A stretch of 27,296 nt of DNA from a virus. The DNA lies in IMG/VR virus record IMGVR_UViG_3300003885_000033, positions 1-27,296 of that record; one strand, given 5' to 3'. Positions 15,104 to 23,120 of the stretch are shown piece by piece. A program made the translations under genes and the position numbers. Under the pieces are notes generated by a model. The model was not told where the DNA came from and did not search any database. It saw only the letters and a program-made list of their open reading frames with translations. The first letter of the stretch is position 1. Every line of letters begins with the position of its first letter.

Positions 15104-15444
15104 TATGGATTCTCCTGACACATTAATATTATTTCCTTGTTATGTTCCATTCGATTAATCACTGTTGAAATACTATAAATTCGAGTACCCCACAAAACAC
15201 GGTGTTTAGCTGTTATTAATGAGGCTAAAGTATCAAAACGTAATCGAATACGAACATTAACATCAACATTAAATTGTTGAGCTGTAAAATATTCAGTTCC
15301 ATTAAGCGGAACAATTGCAGCTTTTCGGGTTATAAAATCGCTCCATGTAATAATTGGCCCCCCTACAGCATCAATGGAATCCGTTGCAGCTTGAATTATT
15401 ATTGTTTCGCGAAGTCGCGCCGCTAAAGGATTCGATTTGGCCAT
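15103..15444 (-). CDS. Head-closure / head-tail adaptor protein (SPP1 gp16-like)
   Basis: A 113-residue protein with the typical features of the phage head-tail joining family: LRETIIIQAATDSIDAVGGPI at the N-terminus, then ITRKAAIVPLNGTEYFTAQQ and a core VDVNVRIRLRFD. It closes the head after packaging and is placed between connector and gp10-like genes as expected. It overlaps the connector gene by 22 bases and the next gene by one. Confidence 0.88.
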   Translation of the reverse strand: MAKSNPLAARLRETIIIQAATDSIDAVGGPIITWSDFITRKAAIVPLNGTEYFTAQQFNVDVNVRIRLRFDTLASLITAKHRVLWGTRIYSISTVINRMEHNKEIILMCQENP

Positions 15445-15968
15445 AATATACTTTTTGATGCCTTATCAAGATCGGGATCAAGATCGTAGAGTGAGACTAA
15501 TTGAGTCATAATCCCATCCTTAATTCGTTGAGGAACCGCTGACGCGTTACTATAACCAGCTGTCATTCTTATCGTGATAGGATTTGGCCTCGATGCTAAA
15601 GAAGGCCAGCCACCTATAGATCTAACTCTACCGCCTTCAGTTATAATATCCGCGTAATAATCAACATCAACGACTAAAGTAAGTTGAACAGATGGTGAAC
15701 TAGTATCGTAATACTTTACAGAATCAATCGACTGTAAAGGCCAAGTAGCAAGACCGAATTGTGTCGATGGCCATCTATCTAGATTAAGATCGATTACAGT
15801 CGGCATAATGTAAATACCACAATAATTTTCTGTAAATTCACGCGCTGACTTTATAAGACCAGAAATTCTATCGTCCTCATCATCATGTAAAATACTTAAC
15901 TTCCCTTTAGCTTCAGCGATAGTTACAGGCTCAGCTTTTGGCTCAGTTATGATCGTAAATGTTCCCAT
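15423..15968 (-). CDS. Head-tail connector (HK97 gp6-like)
   Basis: A 181-residue protein of the gp6/phiE125 gp8 family. EPVTIAEAKGKLSI, DDEDDRISGLIKSAREFTENYCG and the following strand with IDLNLDRWPS are characteristic, as are PLQSIDSVKYYD in the middle and PNPITIRMTAGYSNASAVPQ near the end. It forms the ring under the portal. It would normally follow the capsid gene closely, but here more than 4 kb of other genes lie between. Its start overlaps the end of the sugar-modification cassette by 22 bases, so the cassette is co-translated with the neck. Confidence 0.88.
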   Translation of the reverse strand: MGTFTIITEPKAEPVTIAEAKGKLSILHDDEDDRISGLIKSAREFTENYCGIYIMPTVIDLNLDRWPSTQFGLATWPLQSIDSVKYYDTSSPSVQLTLVVDVDYYADIITEGGRVRSIGGWPSLASRPNPITIRMTAGYSNASAVPQRIKDGIMTQLVSLYDLDPDLDKASKSILWPNRIL

Positions 15969-16567
15969 ACATCACCGTTTTTTATTTCGTTATAATTCCA
16001 ATTCGCATAGGGTAACAATTCAAGCCAATTTTCATTTAGCAAGATACTATTTGAACCCTTACAATTTATTTTTAAACCAGATAATGCTGCCTGTATTAAA
16101 GCAGTTGTATTATAACCAGTAGCACGATTACATTTATCAATGTCATTCTGCAATGTGCTTTCATATTTTTGATTTGCTGGATGTAGCCTGATAATATCTG
16201 CTTGTTCTTTAATACCGTTATAATCGGCAAGAAATAAAGAACTATTTCCTTTTGGCTCATTTATTCTTAATTTCTTACGACCTATTCCAATCTTATAATT
16301 ACGTCCGCCGATTGTATTCATCCAGCCAATGGACACGTGATCATTAAAAGATAAGTAATAATTTCTATCTAATAAAATAACCCGGCCATGATTAAGCCAT
16401 TGTGATTTAGCATAATTCGGGCCAAGTACAACATGAACATCAGCCTCTTGTGTAACTGATGATGTTATTTCTGATTTTAGATTATGTTTTAAGAAACCTT
16501 GTTTAAATAACTTGGCTTGTTCGATTTGATGCGCGTAATTAAAGTTTGTGTGAATGGCAATAGCCAA
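15947..16567 (-). CDS. Glycosyltransferase-like protein (GT-B type suspected)
   Basis: A 206-residue protein, last of the cassette. It begins at a TTG with GAGG ten bases upstream; no ATG occurs before the conserved-looking IHTNFNYAHQIEQAKLFKQG. Features are DVHVVLGPNYAKSQWL, RVILLDRNYY, VSIGWMNTIGG, and, near residue 153, GYNTTALIQAALSGLKINC. The last resembles the sugar-nucleotide-binding G-x-TTAL-x-EA element of GT-B enzymes and of capsule or teichoic-acid glycosyl/glycerophosphotransferases. It overlaps the upstream glycosyltransferase by 79 bases. Enzyme class is a moderate inference; the donor is unknown. Confidence 0.55.
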   Translation of the reverse strand: MAIAIHTNFNYAHQIEQAKLFKQGFLKHNLKSEITSSVTQEADVHVVLGPNYAKSQWLNHGRVILLDRNYYLSFNDHVSIGWMNTIGGRNYKIGIGRKKLRINEPKGNSSLFLADYNGIKEQADIIRLHPANQKYESTLQNDIDKCNRATGYNTTALIQAALSGLKINCKGSNSILLNENWLELLPYANWNYNEIKNGDVWEHLRS

Positions 16568-17145
16568 TTATCGTTAACCTCGTGTGGATCTGGTTTCCCA
16601 TGAAAACAAATTACTTTTAAATCTTTTGGTAAATTATTTTTACAATGATATTTATATGAACCTATTCCCGGAATTTTTACCCAGTTATCTTTTAAAAGTT
16701 CTGTTAAATATTCCTGATCACCCCATAGCCGTTCACGATCATTAACATAGTCAAAATGATCGTAAGGTTTTGACCAATTACCCGGCCAGCACATAACAGA
16801 TGATTGTATTCCGCCATGACCTGATTCCGCCCAATTAGCAGGAGCTGAAAACGTATTAGTAAAATTGACTAAATAATCAAGATTCCCAGTTATAACAACG
16901 TCGAGATCAAAATATATTGTTGGCCCTATTGCGATACGTGGAGCAAACAATCCTATCTTTTGCCACCATCCATTATAAGGGACAAAAGGTAAAACAGTTT
17001 GAATGCCTTCTAATTTTTCAGTCGTTATACATTTAAAGGTATGCGGAATAGTTAAATTCTTTTTAACCATTTCCTTTAATGCGTAAACGTATGAAATATC
17101 GTATTTATCACCCCAATAGACACAAAGGATTGTTAAGTCACTCAT
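16489..17145 (-). CDS. Glycosyltransferase, GT-A fold
   Basis: A 218-residue protein. LTILCVYWGDKYDISYVYALKEM starts a nucleotide-sugar-binding Rossmann-like half, and TIYFDLDVVITGNLD (residues 76-90) carries the metal-binding DxD (Asp80, Asp82) in the usual context of family 8-like transferases. ANWAESGHGGIQSSVM and RLWGDQEYLTELL, then ICFHGKPDPHEV (the conserved His near the C-terminus), complete the pattern. The last 25 residues overlap the next gene and look unconserved. It overlaps the upstream methyltransferase by four bases, consistent with one translation unit. Confidence 0.8.
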   Translation of the reverse strand: MSDLTILCVYWGDKYDISYVYALKEMVKKNLTIPHTFKCITTEKLEGIQTVLPFVPYNGWWQKIGLFAPRIAIGPTIYFDLDVVITGNLDYLVNFTNTFSAPANWAESGHGGIQSSVMCWPGNWSKPYDHFDYVNDRERLWGDQEYLTELLKDNWVKIPGIGSYKYHCKNNLPKDLKVICFHGKPDPHEVNDNWLLPFTQTLITRIKSNKPSYLNKVS

Positions 17146-17681
17146 CGAGGTCTAATTATATTGTGATATATATTTTTCATATCTGGCATTTTAAAATCAT
17201 AGTGATCAACTTTTAAAAGCCTGACACATAAATTTCGATTCGGCTGTTCTCTACCTATGCCCATGTATTCTATTTCATATCCATTTTCTGAAAACTGATA
17301 AAAAAATTCCTCCATGGGATAGTGAGTACCATGCCACCACCAATCACCTTGTAATGGTGTTAAGCTGGCAATAATTCCGCCTATATCTGTAAGATTATGA
17401 ATATTTTTCCATACTGCTTTTTGATCACTAACATGTTCAGTTGTCCCGATATTCGTAACCATGTCAAACGGATCTAAATCTATAGTCTTTCTTAAGTCTA
17501 AATTTAATGCGCCGTCCTCACCATTCCAATCGATTGATGTATGATCCATTCCTAAACTTTCAAAATAATCCTTATAAACACCGTTTGAATTTTTCTTATT
17601 TCCTAATTCAAGCATTCGATTTCCGACTAAAGGCCAGATAATTACCTGTTCATCTTCGGGCACTGGATTTATAATTTTCAT
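17142..17681 (-). CDS. SAM-dependent methyltransferase
   Basis: A 179-residue class I methyltransferase. MLELGNKKN (23-31) is the SAM-binding motif I, Asp51 in TSIDWNGEDG ends the second strand, and PFDMVTNIGTTEHV (71-84) matches motif IV with the following helix. GGIIASLTPLQGDWWWHG follows as the fifth strand and a substrate-side loop. The pattern of a short enzyme lacking a large extra domain fits small-molecule, sugar or protein side-chain methylation rather than DNA methylation: there is no NPPY/DPPY motif. It overlaps both neighbours by four bases (ATGA). Confidence 0.8.
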   Translation of the reverse strand: MKIINPVPEDEQVIIWPLVGNRMLELGNKKNSNGVYKDYFESLGMDHTSIDWNGEDGALNLDLRKTIDLDPFDMVTNIGTTEHVSDQKAVWKNIHNLTDIGGIIASLTPLQGDWWWHGTHYPMEEFFYQFSENGYEIEYMGIGREQPNRNLCVRLLKVDHYDFKMPDMKNIYHNIIRPR

Positions 17682-18172
17682 AACTCAGCCATTATTAAAA
17701 CATCCTTTTTTTTGTTCAAAACAATCATGTCAACAATATTCAATTTGTAATCCATCCAATCAAACCGCTGAGTAATTAATAAATATTTTGAGTTACTTTT
17801 CTTTAGGTTTTCAAAAGCAATATTATGCTCTATCAAAGGGAAATGATTTAACACCCATAAACACATTAACAAATCTGATTTAGGTGGTACTGTTGTTAAT
17901 AAATTAAAACTATTAACGCTCTTATGCCTAGGCACTAAATCATAAGCTTTGTATTTAACATCAATACCGAATTTAATTTTACTTATCCAATTTAGATCCC
18001 CTGCTCCGATATCAGAAATTGTTTTTATTTTTAAATCTTCGATTATTTTAGGTATCCATAATCGCTGTTTTGAAGTTGTTGATAATTTAGATCCATGACC
18101 GCATTTAGTTTCCGGTAGGCCACTTAACCAACCAGTTTTATATTTTTCAACATTTGTAATTATATTAGTCAT
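17678..18172 (-). CDS. Second SAM-dependent methyltransferase
   Basis: A 164-residue class I methyltransferase. ISDIGAGDLNWI (52-63) is motif I with an unusual Asp-Leu-Asn-Trp continuation, Asp78 in YKAYDLVPRH ends strand two, and SDLLMCLWVLNHFP (99-112) is motif IV. It lacks the full C-terminal strands of larger enzymes, so it is compact or slightly truncated. It has no DNA-methylase catalytic motif. It is unlike the neighbouring methyltransferase in sequence, so the two are not a recent duplication. Four-base overlaps on both sides tie it to the cassette. Confidence 0.75.
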   Translation of the reverse strand: MTNIITNVEKYKTGWLSGLPETKCGHGSKLSTTSKQRLWIPKIIEDLKIKTISDIGAGDLNWISKIKFGIDVKYKAYDLVPRHKSVNSFNLLTTVPPKSDLLMCLWVLNHFPLIEHNIAFENLKKSNSKYLLITQRFDWMDYKLNIVDMIVLNKKKDVLIMAEL

Positions 18173-18657
18173 AAATAACTATTGTAAATTTTTACCGCTT
18201 CAAAATCTGGATGTTCATAAAACCACGGCTGAGTAGCCAAGCTAGTAAAGTGTAATAATTTCATTCCGGGAATAACTTTATCTTTAACATTCCATGATAA
18301 AGGAATTGTTTTTGATTTAGGTATTAAATGTTCACTGTGTTTATCACGGCATAAATGACTAGTTCCAATTACAGATACTTCAGTACTACCATCCTCCATA
18401 CATACAAAACGACCTTTTTCATAATACGACCATAATTCGGCAATATCACCTAGAATAATCATGTCGCAATCTAAATAAATTCCGTGGCTGATTTCATATC
18501 TAACGTTTGTAAATCCAGTACAACCGGCTTCAATTTTTGGGTAAAGATATTTGATTTCAGTAGGCGTATTTGTGTTTTGAATTATCGAACGCTCAGTTAA
18601 TCCTTGTGTGATTCTGAAGCGTTCAGAAATTCCGATAAAGATTGGTATGGGTAACAT
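18169..18657 (-). CDS. Glycosyltransferase, GT8-like
   Basis: A 162-residue protein starting LPIPIFIGI, the first strand of GT8-like phage transferases. YLDCDMIILGDIAELW (61-76) carries the DxD metal site (Asp63, Asp65). VCMEDGSTEVSV and, near the end, PGMKLLHFTSLATQPW supply the conserved His that contacts the nucleotide. The substrate-binding region between strands appears shorter than in bacterial GT8 enzymes. It overlaps the DUF115-like gene by 61 bases with no clear ribosome-binding site, so expression probably depends on upstream translation. Confidence 0.8.
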   Translation of the reverse strand: MLPIPIFIGISERFRITQGLTERSIIQNTNTPTEIKYLYPKIEAGCTGFTNVRYEISHGIYLDCDMIILGDIAELWSYYEKGRFVCMEDGSTEVSVIGTSHLCRDKHSEHLIPKSKTIPLSWNVKDKVIPGMKLLHFTSLATQPWFYEHPDFEAVKIYNSYL

Positions 18658-19262
18658 TTTAATGCGCTATTTTTTGTGCAGTTTATAATTTCAATTCCAT
18701 AATCTTCAGGCTTAATTGTTTCAACTTCTTTAATTAAACCCGTCATTTCGCCATCTGATCCTGTTCGTGGCCAGTGTTGCAATTTATTAGGATACTCACC
18801 GAAATAATGCCTATTTCCAGCATATTGACTATCATTTACCTTTCCGGGATACCGCATATCCCAACCTATTAAGGCCATTTTCTTTACGCCATAATGTAAA
18901 GCTAAATTTAAAATTTGTGGGCCTGATCCATGATGTGCGTGGATATAATTCTTATCAGTACTTAATCCCGGCTCCCATATTTCCTCTATGTAATTAATAC
19001 TGTATTTTCTTGCGCTTTCAATCCTTGGAGTCCATTTATGACATTTATATTTTTTTATATCAGACCAGTAATAATCCCAAAAATCAAAATTACACGCTAA
19101 CATAACATCAACATCAAATTGATAAGCTCTGTTAACTCCAAATGTTTTATATTTTTTTACTAAGTTAACTTGTTCTATCGTTAATGAGGGGCCTGTACCG
19201 ATGATAACGCCAATTCGATCCTCATTTTTGGAAAACAATTTAAATTTGTCTTTCTTGAACAA
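18597..19262 (-). CDS. DUF115/MptE-like protein, paralogue 2
   Basis: A 221-residue protein. The frame opens just after a stop, and the first usable starts are TTG codons at 19262 and 19238, with no ATG before the domain. RIGVIIGTGPSL (16-27) is the nucleotide-binding opening of the DUF115 / MptE-like family, FGVNRAYQ and VDVMLACNFDFWDYY follow, and HHGSGPQILNLALHYG with MALIGWDMRYPG form the second conserved block. It ends EIINCTKNSALKCYP, which closely matches the end of the preceding domain, so the two are tandem paralogues. The family is found beside glycan and flagellin glycosylation genes in bacteria. It overlaps the preceding frame by 82 bases. Confidence 0.75.
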   Translation of the reverse strand: MFKKDKFKLFSKNEDRIGVIIGTGPSLTIEQVNLVKKYKTFGVNRAYQFDVDVMLACNFDFWDYYWSDIKKYKCHKWTPRIESARKYSINYIEEIWEPGLSTDKNYIHAHHGSGPQILNLALHYGVKKMALIGWDMRYPGKVNDSQYAGNRHYFGEYPNKLQHWPRTGSDGEMTGLIKEVETIKPEDYGIEIINCTKNSALKCYPYQSLSEFLNASESHKD

Positions 19263-19774
19263 TTAATTATCTCAATATCTTTTGTTATCGTTTTAAAGGA
19301 TTCTATAAATTTATTAAAAGGTGAACATACATCTAATTCCTTTGGATGTTTTCCGAAATAGTGATCGCCAAACATATCAAAACCTAATAACAAAATCGTT
19401 TTAGCTCCTAATAAATAAGCTAAATTAACAGCTTGAAATCCTGAATTACCACCACCCGGAATTCCATAATGGATCATTTTTTCACCCAGATCAGGCGATT
19501 GCTTCGAATTTACCCGAACAATTTCATATTCTTTATTAGGGTTTCTACTTTCATTATTAAGATCGTTAATAGTATAAGATATACCAGAAAAACTAGCCCT
19601 GACATTGTTATAATGTAAATCCCACCACTGAGAATCACACGCGTAATGATAAGGAGCATTAAGTGCTAATTCCCACGCATCATTTACTGTGATAACTTGC
19701 GTCTTTTCAATTGCGATTTTGACATCTTCTTTTTTGATACTTTGACCGGTTGCGATAACTGTGTAGATTGGCTG
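19181..19774 (-). CDS. DUF115/MptE-like domain without its own start, made by frameshift
   Basis: An uninterrupted frame of 197 codons encodes a complete DUF115-like domain: PIYTVIATGQSI, QVITVNDAWELALNAPYHYAC, then SQWWDLHY, GGGNSGFQAVNLAYLLGAK, ILLLGFDMFGDHYFG, and the ending EIINCSRKTNLNCFP. It aligns with the next gene over its whole length. No ATG, GTG or TTG occurs in this frame between the upstream stop (19793) and an ATG at 19477, in the middle of the domain. The natural route is a -1 shift from the gene starting at 19956, at the A9 tract, giving a fusion of about 258 residues. A sequence error in the homopolymer would give the same picture. Starting at 19477 would remove the nucleotide-binding half. 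Confidence 0.75.
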   Translation of the reverse strand, partial: QPIYTVIATGQSIKKEDVKIAIEKTQVITVNDAWELALNAPYHYACDSQWWDLHYNNVRASFSGISYTINDLNNESRNPNKEYEIVRVNSKQSPDLGEKMIHYGIPGGGNSGFQAVNLAYLLGAKTILLLGFDMFGDHYFGKHPKELDVCSPFNKFIESFKTITKDIEIINCSRKTNLNCFPKMRIELALSSVQAPH

Positions 19775-19956
19775 TTTTTTTTTGGCTCGTATTTAATATC
19801 TACTTTAGTCTCGTAGTCGATCATTCTCTCAGCAGCTCCGCATTCGTCAACCAGATGATTTAAAAAAGAAATTGGATAATGTTTATCACTAATAATATCA
19901 CCACGAGAAAAATCACCATAAGGTGTTATAGGATTCGCTATAATTTTAATTTTCAT
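19684..19956 (-). CDS. Small protein upstream of the DUF115 domain (zero-frame product)
   Basis: A 90-residue frame beginning MKIKIIANPITPYGDFSRGD. Small proteins of this look, with a beta-rich start and 'YGDF..GDII', commonly follow capsid genes in siphophages; I cannot name the family. Residues 1-60 look like a real domain. Residues 61-90 are a Ser/Lys/Gln-rich tail read from DNA that in the -1 frame encodes the start of the DUF115 domain, so the tail is probably only the non-shifted end. An upstream in-frame start at 20031 would overlap the capsid gene and is less likely. The ATG at 19956 has no direct ribosome-binding site (see 19946-19989). Confidence 0.65.
   Translation of the reverse strand: MKIKIIANPITPYGDFSRGDIISDKHYPISFLNHLVDECGAAERMIDYETKVDIKYEPKKNSQSTQLSQPVKVSKKKMSKSQLKRRKLSQ
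19774..19783 (-). other. A9 slippery tract, probable -1 frameshift or RNA-polymerase slippage site
   Basis: The minus strand reads CCA AAA AAA AAC in the zero frame of the gene starting at 19956. It contains A AAA AAA (19783-19777) and A AAA AAC (19780-19774), both in the X XXY YYZ register, so a -1 shift enters the DUF115 frame. Nine As are also enough for transcriptional slippage; adding one A has the same effect. Confidence 0.65.
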
Positions 19957-19989
19957 AAATAAATGAGCCGTCCATGGCTCGGACTCCTT
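19946..19989 (-). promoter_or_regulatory. SD, start codon in a hairpin loop, and nine-codon ORF after the capsid gene
   Basis: The capsid stop overlaps AAGGAG (19984-19989). Eight bases later an ATG (19973-19975) opens a nine-codon frame, MDGSFIYEN, that stops at 19946-19948, eight bases past the ATG of the next gene. That first ATG lies in the loop of a perfect 5-bp hairpin, GAGCC (19976-19980) with GGCTC (19965-19969). Either the mini-ORF delivers ribosomes to the 19956 start by reinitiation, or the folded hairpin brings AAGGAG within about 11 bases of that start. Confidence 0.55.
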
Positions 19990-21187
19990 AAAAACTAGCA
20001 GTAATAAAAGATTCAGTTCTAAAAACAACAAGGGCGATCCGTTCTTCAGCTCGGATAGTTACCATGTTCTTTTCAAAGTTAGTTGAGTTTTCATAACTAA
20101 TTTCAACAGCTGCCGCGTTCCGATCTTTGATTTCTGAACTCATAGCGAAAGCACCAACTAGAACAGTCGCGGCTGGCATTGCATTTGTTACGATAACAGG
20201 AATACCCCACAAAGTAGGCTGACTAAAAGCGCGAGGATTTCCTACAACATAACGAATGTCAGTCGCGGAACTTCCAACTTTAAGAACATCAATTTCATAC
20301 CAGTCTTGAGGATTCATTAAAACAGCATCAGGTGTATAATTTGCGATCTGTGCTTGCTTAATCATTTCCCGAACGATATCAAGTTTATTAGTCAGATTAG
20401 GAGATTGTACTGTGTAAGCTGTTGCTTGAGTATTTATCCCATTTAATTGACCGTTTGCACCTGTACCAGAAATCAATTGATTTTCTTCATACAACTTTAA
20501 ACCATACATCAAACGACCATTAATAAAGCTTTGTAACTGAACAGAATCTTCAATAACTTGCTTTGACGCTGGGATAAAATGCGCTAGTGTTTGTACTGGC
20601 TCAGTTGCTAAAGTAAATGTAATCGCTGATTCAGGTTTAGTCACATTTTCAAAAGCTTCAGGAGAGCCGCCAATTTGAGGCCCGGCATTATTTGTATACG
20701 TATTTTCCCGAACAAACTCAATCAAATTTGAAGTTGTTGAACTAGTAGGAATTAAATCACGCACCATTAATTGACGGTTGACAGTTGTATTAATTCCAGT
20801 AAGACGATCAGCAGCTACTAGCGGCTGATTTTGACCAGTTGCATTAATAATAGCAGCCTTAATATCCATTCGAGCAATCCCAGCACGGCCATCTTGCATT
20901 TGTAAGAATTGATCACACTTAATAAATTGTGTTCCTATATCATCATCATAAGTTTCTTCTTGAATCTTAACGCCATTTTGTTCAATGGCCATCATACGAT
21001 CACCGAATTCATTCAGCTTTTCAGAAATACCGTCGATAGCCGCTTTTGTTTCGAGTGAAACCTTGCCAGCTTCTTTAGCCTCTCCATTGGCTTTTTCGAT
21101 TGAAACATTCAGTTCTTCTTGCTTTGCTAAAAATGCTTTTTCAACCATTTTCAAATCATAAAATTCTTCTTTTTGCTGCATATCCAT
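19988..21187 (-). CDS. Major capsid protein, HK97 gp5 family
   Basis: A 399-residue capsid protein with GGAG eight bases before its ATG. Residues 1-75 form the charged coiled-coil scaffolding (delta) region removed by the prohead protease; the cut is expected near residues 105-112. The mature part has the full HK97 pattern: EFVRENTYTNNA (E-loop), EPVQTLAHFIPASKQV, LYEENQLISGTGANGQLNGI, PDAVLMNPQDW, LWGIPVIVTNAMP and NFEKNMVTIRAEERIALVV at the end. The chemical crosslinking Lys/Asn pair of HK97 itself cannot be confirmed by eye. It is flanked by a terminator-like hairpin upstream and the SD/hairpin element downstream. Confidence 0.95.
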   Translation of the reverse strand: MDMQQKEEFYDLKMVEKAFLAKQEELNVSIEKANGEAKEAGKVSLETKAAIDGISEKLNEFGDRMMAIEQNGVKIQEETYDDDIGTQFIKCDQFLQMQDGRAGIARMDIKAAIINATGQNQPLVAADRLTGINTTVNRQLMVRDLIPTSSTTSNLIEFVRENTYTNNAGPQIGGSPEAFENVTKPESAITFTLATEPVQTLAHFIPASKQVIEDSVQLQSFINGRLMYGLKLYEENQLISGTGANGQLNGINTQATAYTVQSPNLTNKLDIVREMIKQAQIANYTPDAVLMNPQDWYEIDVLKVGSSATDIRYVVGNPRAFSQPTLWGIPVIVTNAMPAATVLVGAFAMSSEIKDRNAAAVEISYENSTNFEKNMVTIRAEERIALVVFRTESFITASF

Positions 21188-22112: not shown

Positions 22113-22538
22113 CTAAACATCAACAAAATAACCGGCTAAAGTAACATCAACATTTACATCAGTCGCTATAGCAACAATTGAAACCGATTTACTCGTTAAC
22201 AAATTCATGTCTGTAGCAACAAGCCGATCATTTCTTAACATATCAAGTTTGAATATCGTTTTTAAATTTGTAGCTAAATCACTTGGACTAGCTTCATACA
22301 ATGTTATCGTTTCGGCAGTCGTTGACGTTCCAAAGCTCTTATCTGATGCAATTAAAACGCCAGTGATAATAAAGTTGTACTTTACTTCGGCTGGCACGAT
22401 CTCTAGAGCTACCAGACTATTAACTGAAATATAATAAGCTGTTGAATATTTTATTGGTGCAACAATTAAAGCACCATTTTTAGTGACTGTAGCAATAGCA
22501 CTAGTTTGATCATCATGTAAGCTGAAATGAACAGTCAT
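22113..22538 (-). CDS. Virion structural-type protein, unassigned
   Basis: A 141-residue strand-rich protein with few charged clusters. It starts MTVHFSLHDDQTSAIATVTKNGALIVAP and has NFIITGVLIASDKSFGTSTTAETITLYEA in the middle, a jelly-roll-like alternation of hydrophobic strands. It starts three bases after the upstream stop. Such small beta proteins between portal and protease may decorate the capsid or form head fibres, but I do not recognise the family. Confidence 0.6.
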   Translation of the reverse strand: MTVHFSLHDDQTSAIATVTKNGALIVAPIKYSTAYYISVNSLVALEIVPAEVKYNFIITGVLIASDKSFGTSTTAETITLYEASPSDLATNLKTIFKLDMLRNDRLVATDMNLLTSKSVSIVAIATDVNVDVTLAGYFVDV

Positions 22539-22541
22539 TGT

Positions 22542-23120
22542 TTAACGATCGACTTCAACAAGCGACCATGTAACAGTTAATCCATTCGTAGCATTCGCTG
22601 TTAAGACTTTAACTGCTAAAGCTACACCCGGAGGAATTATAATATTTGACGTTGTTCTAATATGAGTCGTTTTATTATCTAAACTCCCAGCATGAAATAT
22701 ATTTGCTACTTTAGTTAAACCAGTTAACCCGGTTGCGCTAGTTGCATAATCCATATTCCCAGTTGGGACAGTAGAGTTTCCGATATTCCTTGAAGCAATT
22801 GCACCCGGCAAAAATGCGGTGTTATTTCCAATCGTTGCGACAGTAACCTCATCAATATCTAAAATACTCGCAGCATCAAGACAATGTGCGCGCATATCTG
22901 TTAAGTGATAAAATACTTGTGATGTATTTTGAAACCAAGCAATGTAAGTCCCGGCGTTCGCTGTAACACCATCCAAATCAATAGACCAGACTTTACCGTT
23001 TAAAATATTGATATGCCGATCCTCAGTTTCAGAAGAAACTAGACCCTGTAATCTACCTTGAGCATCGATAGCCAATGCATACGTTTTCGCCCCTGTTCGT
23101 CCAATAATTTCTATTGACAT
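22542..23120 (-). CDS. Virion structural-type protein, unassigned
   Basis: A 192-residue strand-rich protein with AGAGGGA just before its ATG. It starts MSIEIIGRTGAKTYALAID, has LNGKVWSIDLDGVTANAGTYIAWFQNTSQV and a Gly/Thr/Asn-rich middle, and ends with NIIIPPGVALAVKVLTA and VTWSLVEVD. The sequence looks like a beta-sandwich of the kind used in virion surface proteins. Together with its neighbours it forms a three-gene block between portal and protease, where HK97 itself has nothing. Function unknown. Confidence 0.6.
   Translation of the reverse strand: MSIEIIGRTGAKTYALAIDAQGRLQGLVSSETEDRHINILNGKVWSIDLDGVTANAGTYIAWFQNTSQVFYHLTDMRAHCLDAASILDIDEVTVATIGNNTAFLPGAIASRNIGNSTVPTGNMDYATSATGLTGLTKVANIFHAGSLDNKTTHIRTTSNIIIPPGVALAVKVLTANATNGLTVTWSLVEVDR

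Follow-up and report, generated by a model that had tools for sequence, protein, structure and literature searches.

A predicted −1 frameshift joining a DUF115 transferase-like enzyme to a small post-capsid protein in tailed phages

The window analysed here is the whole of IMG/VR virus record IMGVR_UViG_3300003885_000033 (27,296 bases). Seven enzyme-like frames lie on its minus strand, flanked by the gene of an HK97-type major capsid protein and that of the head-tail connector. The first of them encodes a DUF115 ("sialyltransferase-like") enzyme, and comparison of the window with its relatives gives good support to a programmed −1 frameshift that fuses this enzyme to a small protein encoded after the capsid gene, named the leader here. 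Frameshift fusion of a sugar enzyme to a small capsid-neighbour protein is apparently new and is predicted in dozens of divergent phages. A targeted search of the open literature returned no description of a frameshift-DUF115 fusion, and the 2016 recoding review and the PRFect paper mention no glycosyltransferase.

Frameshift signals in the window

The ATG at 19956 starts the 90-amino-acid (aa) leader and not the DUF115 enzyme. A sequence-only reading of this DNA had run the enzyme block up to 19956. Its seven enzyme-like frames stand, but the stretch from 19956 is not one gene, and the frameshift was overlooked. The first DUF115 frame is open from 19792 to 19181 and is −1 relative to the leader frame. 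No ATG, GTG or TTG occurs in it ahead of the nucleotide-binding (Rossmann) motif IATGQS; the earliest is at 19477, about 100 codons in and far past that motif. A −1 slip on the heptamer A_AAA_AAC (19780-19774) joins the leader frame exactly to the DUF115 frame, and the predicted trans-frame protein has 61 + 197 = 258 aa. The frameshift is proposed because of the lacking start codon, the frame relation, the in-phase heptamer, its conservation and a natural in-frame fusion, the last two described below. Slipping would be expected to take place in the cells of this phage.

Conservation among relatives

More than 560 IMG/VR stretches encode relatives of the DUF115 enzyme. All of the first nine relatives (L002-L010) have the capsid gene, a small open reading frame (ORF), a poly-A heptamer and DUF115 in the −1 frame. 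Wider searches gave 199 usable loci, which were reduced to 110 once those with at least 80% identity had been removed. The capsid-adjacent set consists of 47 non-redundant loci with a capsid gene 100-600 nt upstream. A start codon before the motif is absent in 35 of them, and an in-phase X_XXY_YYZ heptamer is present in 41. The in-phase heptamer was found in 31 of the 35 loci lacking a start, versus 12 and 10 in the other two phases, counts that are inflated by the spill of A runs; when homopolymers were excluded, the numbers were 16 in phase versus 4 and 1. It was also found in 10 of the 12 capsid-adjacent loci that have a start codon. Absence of the start codon is associated with presence of the heptamer (Fisher P=1e-9), and away from the capsid gene the start codon is lacking in just 16 of 63 loci, versus the 35 of 47 next to it (P=3.5e-7); the matches are not phylogenetically independent, so that these P values are guides only.

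The heptamers vary among relatives (A_AAA_AAG, A_AAA_AAC, C_CCT_TTG, C_CCA_AAC, A_AAC_CCT and G_GGA_AAA), which argues that selection acts on slipping and not on the peptide. At locus L030 the leader and DUF115 domains form one in-frame gene of 264 aa, about 300 nt past the capsid match, and L102 has a similar in-frame form.

The window slip site sits in a run of nine A, as would suit a homopolymer sequencing error, and the enzyme might alternatively start at a non-standard codon via translational coupling. We consider it very improbable that there is no frameshift. The frame relation repeats in dozens of independent contigs and in the complete isolates D3 (C_CCA_AAG) and S20 (C_CCT_TTG), a recurrence for which sequencing error in the A run was rejected; many loci are without long A runs, the heptamers are phase-specific, and one subgroup has a covarying stem (see below).

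In cassette-less capsid relatives, namely Mesorhizobium phage P1, Paraburkholderia IPK, Pseudomonas SC_8 and Moraxella Mcat24, the leader is a stand-alone protein of 70-80 aa encoded directly before the connector; Fostie and CP1 are without a leader. The enzyme set looks inserted between leader and connector because cassette-less relatives retain the leader alone.

RNA structures downstream of the slip site and before the leader

Over all relatives the signal of downstream structure is weak (mean z −1.0 versus −0.3 in controls, P=0.02). Since it is convincing in one subgroup only, such structure was rejected as a stimulator for the whole set. This subgroup has AAACCCY or CCCAAAC heptamers and an 8-bp stem starting 5 nt past the heptamer, and the spacing is constant although the heptamer shifts 3 nt between the two types. 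In the stem, 92.4% of cells are paired and 7 of 8 pairs show two-sided changes. None of 500 shuffles matched the covariation score or the pairing percentage, and moving the stem partner by 1-3 columns cut pairing to 33-55%.

In 21 of 29 relatives the gap between the capsid gene and the leader contains a terminator-like hairpin and T run, versus 1 of 87 shuffled controls. Examples are L005, L003, L007, L008 and L063, and the window has a weak version (Table 1). The hairpin suggests attenuated read-through past the capsid gene. The enzymes had been supposed to be made together with the capsid; their place on the late strand agrees with this, but the hairpin comes in between. Hairpin and frameshift together would lower the fusion below the level of the capsid protein, and such a reduced level would fit an enzyme better than a stoichiometric part.

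The leader protein

In the AlphaFold2 (AF2) model of the leader the predicted local distance difference test score (pLDDT) is about 93 at residues 1-40 and about 55 beyond residue 50. Residues 1-46 are folded in the model and are followed by a disordered, strongly basic tail, with the slip site within the disordered linker. Almost every relative has a basic zero-frame tail. An AT-hook-like RGRP is present in 11 of 36, and at this frequency it was rejected as a general leader feature. Basic or RGRP tails are found, for example, in L021, L035, L043, L080 and D3 orf6.5 (L011:3334-3621). The tail region is often doubly coding, with the DUF115 N-terminus in the −1 frame.

Relatives of the leader match phrog_2616, DUF7302 or DUF7210, all widespread small post-capsid phage proteins, weakly to moderately; phrog_2616 is matched by 6 of 23 leader-family members (best E=3.2e-10). 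The window's own leader has no direct match to any of the three, and none of 23 leaders matches PF14000 (lambda gpFI). Protein Data Bank matches of the leader to the N-domain of ribosomal protein L9 (E about 1 or worse) were taken as chance. From its place in the gene order the leader may bind the capsid or neck.

The enzyme cassette

Both DUF115-like proteins match PHROG 4603 ("alpha-2,3-sialyltransferase") over the full domain (Table 1), which bears out the two such proteins of the sequence-only reading, though their PF01973 (MptE-like, DUF115) scores of 19.1 and 23.5 bits are under the curated cut-off of 34.6 bits and indicate resemblance only. The AF2 model of the first DUF115 domain is confident. 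G16, S18, N37, W57, Q120, D139, H144 and N177 are invariant over 33 diverse DUF115 members. The first DUF115 protein is probably a transferase, and it would be an active one.

Alternatively, the fusion might serve in structure or assembly, with a transferase-like domain that is inactive or unused, as a minor virion component like T3/T7 10B or lambda GT. Frameshift-made virion extensions are well known (PMC5009743), and the submitters of PAJU2 labelled its DUF115 protein, ORF010, a "structural protein", a label whose basis could not be traced. The invariance of the motif residues and the company of other transferases, with which the gene travels, suggest a live enzyme, and we hold the structural alternative to be distinctly unlikely. 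A set acting on the DNA or nucleotides of the phage, and not on protein or glycan, would agree with the MptE-like and thiamin pyrophosphokinase-like fold neighbours and with the basic, in 11 of 36 cases AT-hook-like, leader tail. This has a very slim chance of being correct, given that no nucleotide-modification gene was recognised among the scanned window proteins and that the partner genes encode glycosyltransferases and methyltransferases of small molecules.

On the minus strand the window reads terminase, portal, protease, HK97-type capsid, connector, head closure, tail completion, tail terminator, tail tube, tail chaperone and tape measure, with the cassette between capsid and connector. 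Successive cassette frames overlap by 82, 61, 4, 4, 4, 79 and 22 nt, the last one with the connector gene, so that the overlaps of at least 4 bases reported before are confirmed. Profile searches of the cassette gave two DUF115 or sialyltransferase-like proteins, two glycosyltransferase-like proteins with DxD, a methyltransferase with clear and another with weak support, and a conserved protein whose fold is uncertain. The earlier view that the late operon includes a set of enzymes for sugar and methyl modification is supported.

Table 1. Features of the cassette region in the window, with positions on the 27,296-base record.
Feature	Position	Strand	Evidence
HK97-type major capsid protein	19988..21187	-	PF05065 E=2e-45; phrog_10 E=4.7e-55
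Weak terminator-like hairpin GAGCC-ATGGAC-GGCTC then ATTTATTT, in the capsid-leader gap	19965..19980	-	sequence
Leader (small post-capsid protein, zero frame, 90 aa)	19684..19956	-	ATG 19956; AF2
Slippery heptamer A_AAA_AAC, zero-frame phase, within run of nine A	19774..19780	-	sequence
First DUF115/"sialyltransferase-like" domain, −1 frame	19181..19774	-	phrog_4603 E=4.8e-36; AF2 pLDDT 95
Second DUF115-like protein, TTG start aligning with ATG in L002	18597..19262	-	phrog_4603 E=4.6e-26
Short GT8-like protein with DxD (P0004)	18169..18657	-	Glyco_transf_8 E=0.0012, below cut-off
S-adenosylmethionine (SAM) methyltransferase (P0005)	17678..18172	-	phrog_3382 E=1.4e-16
Methyltransferase-like protein, weak (P0006)	17142..17681	-	Methyltransf_12 E=0.0017, below cut-off
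Glycosyltransferase with DxD, P1 PmgQ family (P0007)	16489..17145	-	phrog_1962 E=4e-21; tblastn to P1 pmgQ E=1e-10
Conserved cassette protein, possibly glycosyltransferase-like, function uncertain (P0008)	15947..16567	-	conserved in L002, L004, L005, L007, L009
Head-tail connector (Ad1-like), cassette end	15423..15968	-	PF05135 E=4.5e-6; TIGR02215 E=2.5e-17; phrog_442 E=8.2e-26

Three glycosyltransferase-like proteins, two of them with DxD, and two SAM methyltransferases had been named by the sequence-only reading. The two DxD proteins hold: P0004 has the motif in YLDCDMII and scores 18.9 bits with Glyco_transf_8, not reaching the cut-off of 24.3, and P0007 has it in YFDLDVVI and gives weak GT8 and glycogenin matches in the structure search. 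The third, P0008, gave no significant family or structure match in profile and structure searches; its distant relative in L008 weakly matches DUF6716, a "putative glycosyltransferase". The methyltransferase assignment is clear for P0005 and weak for P0006.

Cassette partners in other phages are transferases, namely GT-D, GT2, FkbM and other methyltransferases, and also a radical SAM enzyme. The L004 and L008 cassettes have a methyltransferase and a glycosyltransferase-like protein, the slot between capsid and connector in the close relative L005 (7702-8634) and in L006 is occupied by a radical SAM-SPASM enzyme together with an FkbM methyltransferase, and D3, PAJU2, Psp6 and the jumbo phage Eowyn have a common partner of 275-296 aa and a methyltransferase. 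Variation of this sort would be expected if the set builds a variable glycan.

Some further features of these loci were observed. The L002 counterpart of window 15947-16567 is split in two overlapping frames (L002:8174-8676), being a pseudogene, an assembly error or a recoding site. In L005 (6061-7038) and L006 the two DUF115 genes are separated by about 1 kb that has no usable long plus-strand ORF and is perhaps a decayed gene or intervening element. The portal gene lies in two frames in L006 (1983-3226) and is intact in L005, probably owing to assembly error. Between portal and protease, window 22113-23120 encodes two proteins (141 and 192 aa) with no PHROG match and 61-84% identity in L002.

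Proposed mechanism and target

In the proposed mechanism most ribosomes on the leader gene would finish in frame and produce the compact N-terminal domain with its basic tail, while a fraction would slip back one base at A_AAA_AAC into the DUF115 frame and produce the 258-aa protein, in which the N-terminal domain of the leader carries the sialyltransferase/MptE-like transferase domain. Related phages have this N-terminal domain as a separate protein encoded beside capsid and connector. Shared by both products, it would anchor the enzyme at the head or neck during assembly, and there the glycosyltransferases and methyltransferase(s) encoded on the same transcript would attach a sugar to a virion protein and methylate it. 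We lean slightly towards this account as a whole, that is, a frameshift by which an enzyme of sugar transfer is tethered to an assembly protein associated with the capsid, and a sugar built on a virion protein. A virion target is favoured, with the predicted tether of the first enzyme to a small post-capsid protein as the chief new argument, and we infer that a virion protein is the target. The virion target of the sequence-only reading thereby gains indirect support, as the first enzyme appears to extend the C-terminus of a post-capsid protein that cassette-less relatives keep by the connector.

Several observations weigh against this account. Stable downstream RNA structure is absent at the window slip site (z=+1.1), a site of a type (A_AAA_AAG/C) known to slip without one. 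The leader aligned by hhalign with the C-terminal 28 residues of lambda gpFI with P=0.0045, the best of 19 tested, and a probability of just 7.7%; this similarity is suggestive only and not significant in itself, and identity with gpFI is not claimed. The solved folds nearest to the first DUF115 domain in Foldseek are thiamin pyrophosphokinase and sialyltransferases at a template modelling score (TM) of about 0.4 (ST6GALNAC2: TM about 0.4, E about 0.03), and its profile match to Campylobacter CstII is weak (E=0.03). "Transferase" is preferred to "sialyltransferase" because the fold matches reach a TM of about 0.4 only and CstII matches at that E value. In PAJU2, phiNP and P1 PmgO the DUF115 protein is made from its own start and without a leader, so that tethering is not universal. 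Finally, P1 pmgO, pmgP and pmgQ are nonessential for lytic growth in E. coli (PMC10695390).

Nonessentiality is as for an accessory host-directed function. The frameshift could be real and the enzymes modify host surface glycan for receptor masking or superinfection exclusion, with the leader merely setting the enzyme dose. Phages are known to alter host O-antigen, and DUF115 genes are also found at a distance from the capsid gene, where they have start codons of their own (40 of 48 with no capsid gene nearby). We regard this alternative as unlikely: position next to the capsid gene is strongly associated with the leader fusion, late-operon timing fits a virion better than host remodelling, and D3 seroconversion has been assigned to three other adjacent genes (PMC7326022).

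Phage structural-gene frameshifting and phage glycosyltransferases are each known, and a conserved frameshift uniting both would, if true, link head assembly with sugar modification. One gene would then need re-annotating in many phages, among them D3; for capsid-adjacent DUF115 genes standard annotation trims the N-terminus or misses the gene. No virion proteomics showing a DUF115 protein in particles was found in open papers. D3 is an isolated, classical phage in which frameshift fusion and virion glycosylation are directly testable.

Comparison with known phage systems

By its gene content the cassette is, as a set, a known kind of phage gene set. Related sets are present in P1 (pmgO/P/Q), D3, PAJU2, Psp6 and Tetraselmis virus S20, so that neither a set peculiar to this phage nor the supposed unusual content and place could be maintained. 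The P1 late cluster pmgO-pmgP-ppp-pmgQ (P7 hdmB/C/D) lines up, like the window, two DUF115/"sialyltransferase" proteins and a glycosyltransferase of the same family. Unlike the window cassette, it lies outside the capsid-connector slot, PmgO has its own ATG and needs no frameshift, and a phosphatase is present and a methyltransferase absent. The small P1 gene pmgN (L014:4020-4175) overlaps pmgO, the two frames being +1 and not −1; pmgN is essential by CRISPR interference, though called nonessential from deletion data (PMC10695390).

Pseudomonas phage D3 orf6.5-orf7, with PMG1, phi1 and Psp6, resembles the window in having the capsid, leader, DUF115 in the −1 frame and connector. D3 orf6.5 corresponds to the leader and orf7 to the enzyme, with C_CCA_AAG in phase, a pattern equal to lambda G_GGA_AAG; orf7 is annotated from an internal ATG, by which the motif is lost. 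Unlike the window, this group has a single DUF115 gene, and in D3 the partner and methyltransferase genes are found farther downstream. In Psp6 the frame relation is present and a canonical heptamer is absent. Tetraselmis viridis virus S20/SI1 has the capsid, leader and −1 DUF115 with C_CCT_TTG in phase, followed by GT-D, a second DUF115, a methyltransferase and GT2; it differs from the window in its other glycosyltransferase families and its much longer leader tail.

Mycobacteriophage glycosyltransferases have capsids and tail tubes as their targets (Freeman et al. 2023, cited in PMC10877033); the cited passage mentions no frameshift tether, and this likeness to the window is one of description. 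Lambda gpFI (PF14000) is, like the leader, a small protein encoded directly after the capsid gene. In lambda gpG/gpGT and T3/T7 10A/10B a −1 slip near the end of a structural or assembly gene likewise yields a minor, C-terminally extended product. The extension in the window is a transferase-like enzyme, whereas those of lambda and T3/T7 are a tail-assembly or immunoglobulin-like domain. Tailed phages may widely use a −1 frameshift to weld a sugar-transfer enzyme onto a capsid or neck assembly protein at a fixed minor ratio, a generalisation that we offer tentatively and rate somewhat short of even; the virion would then carry, or be built around, its own glycosylation machinery, like retroviral Gag-Pol.

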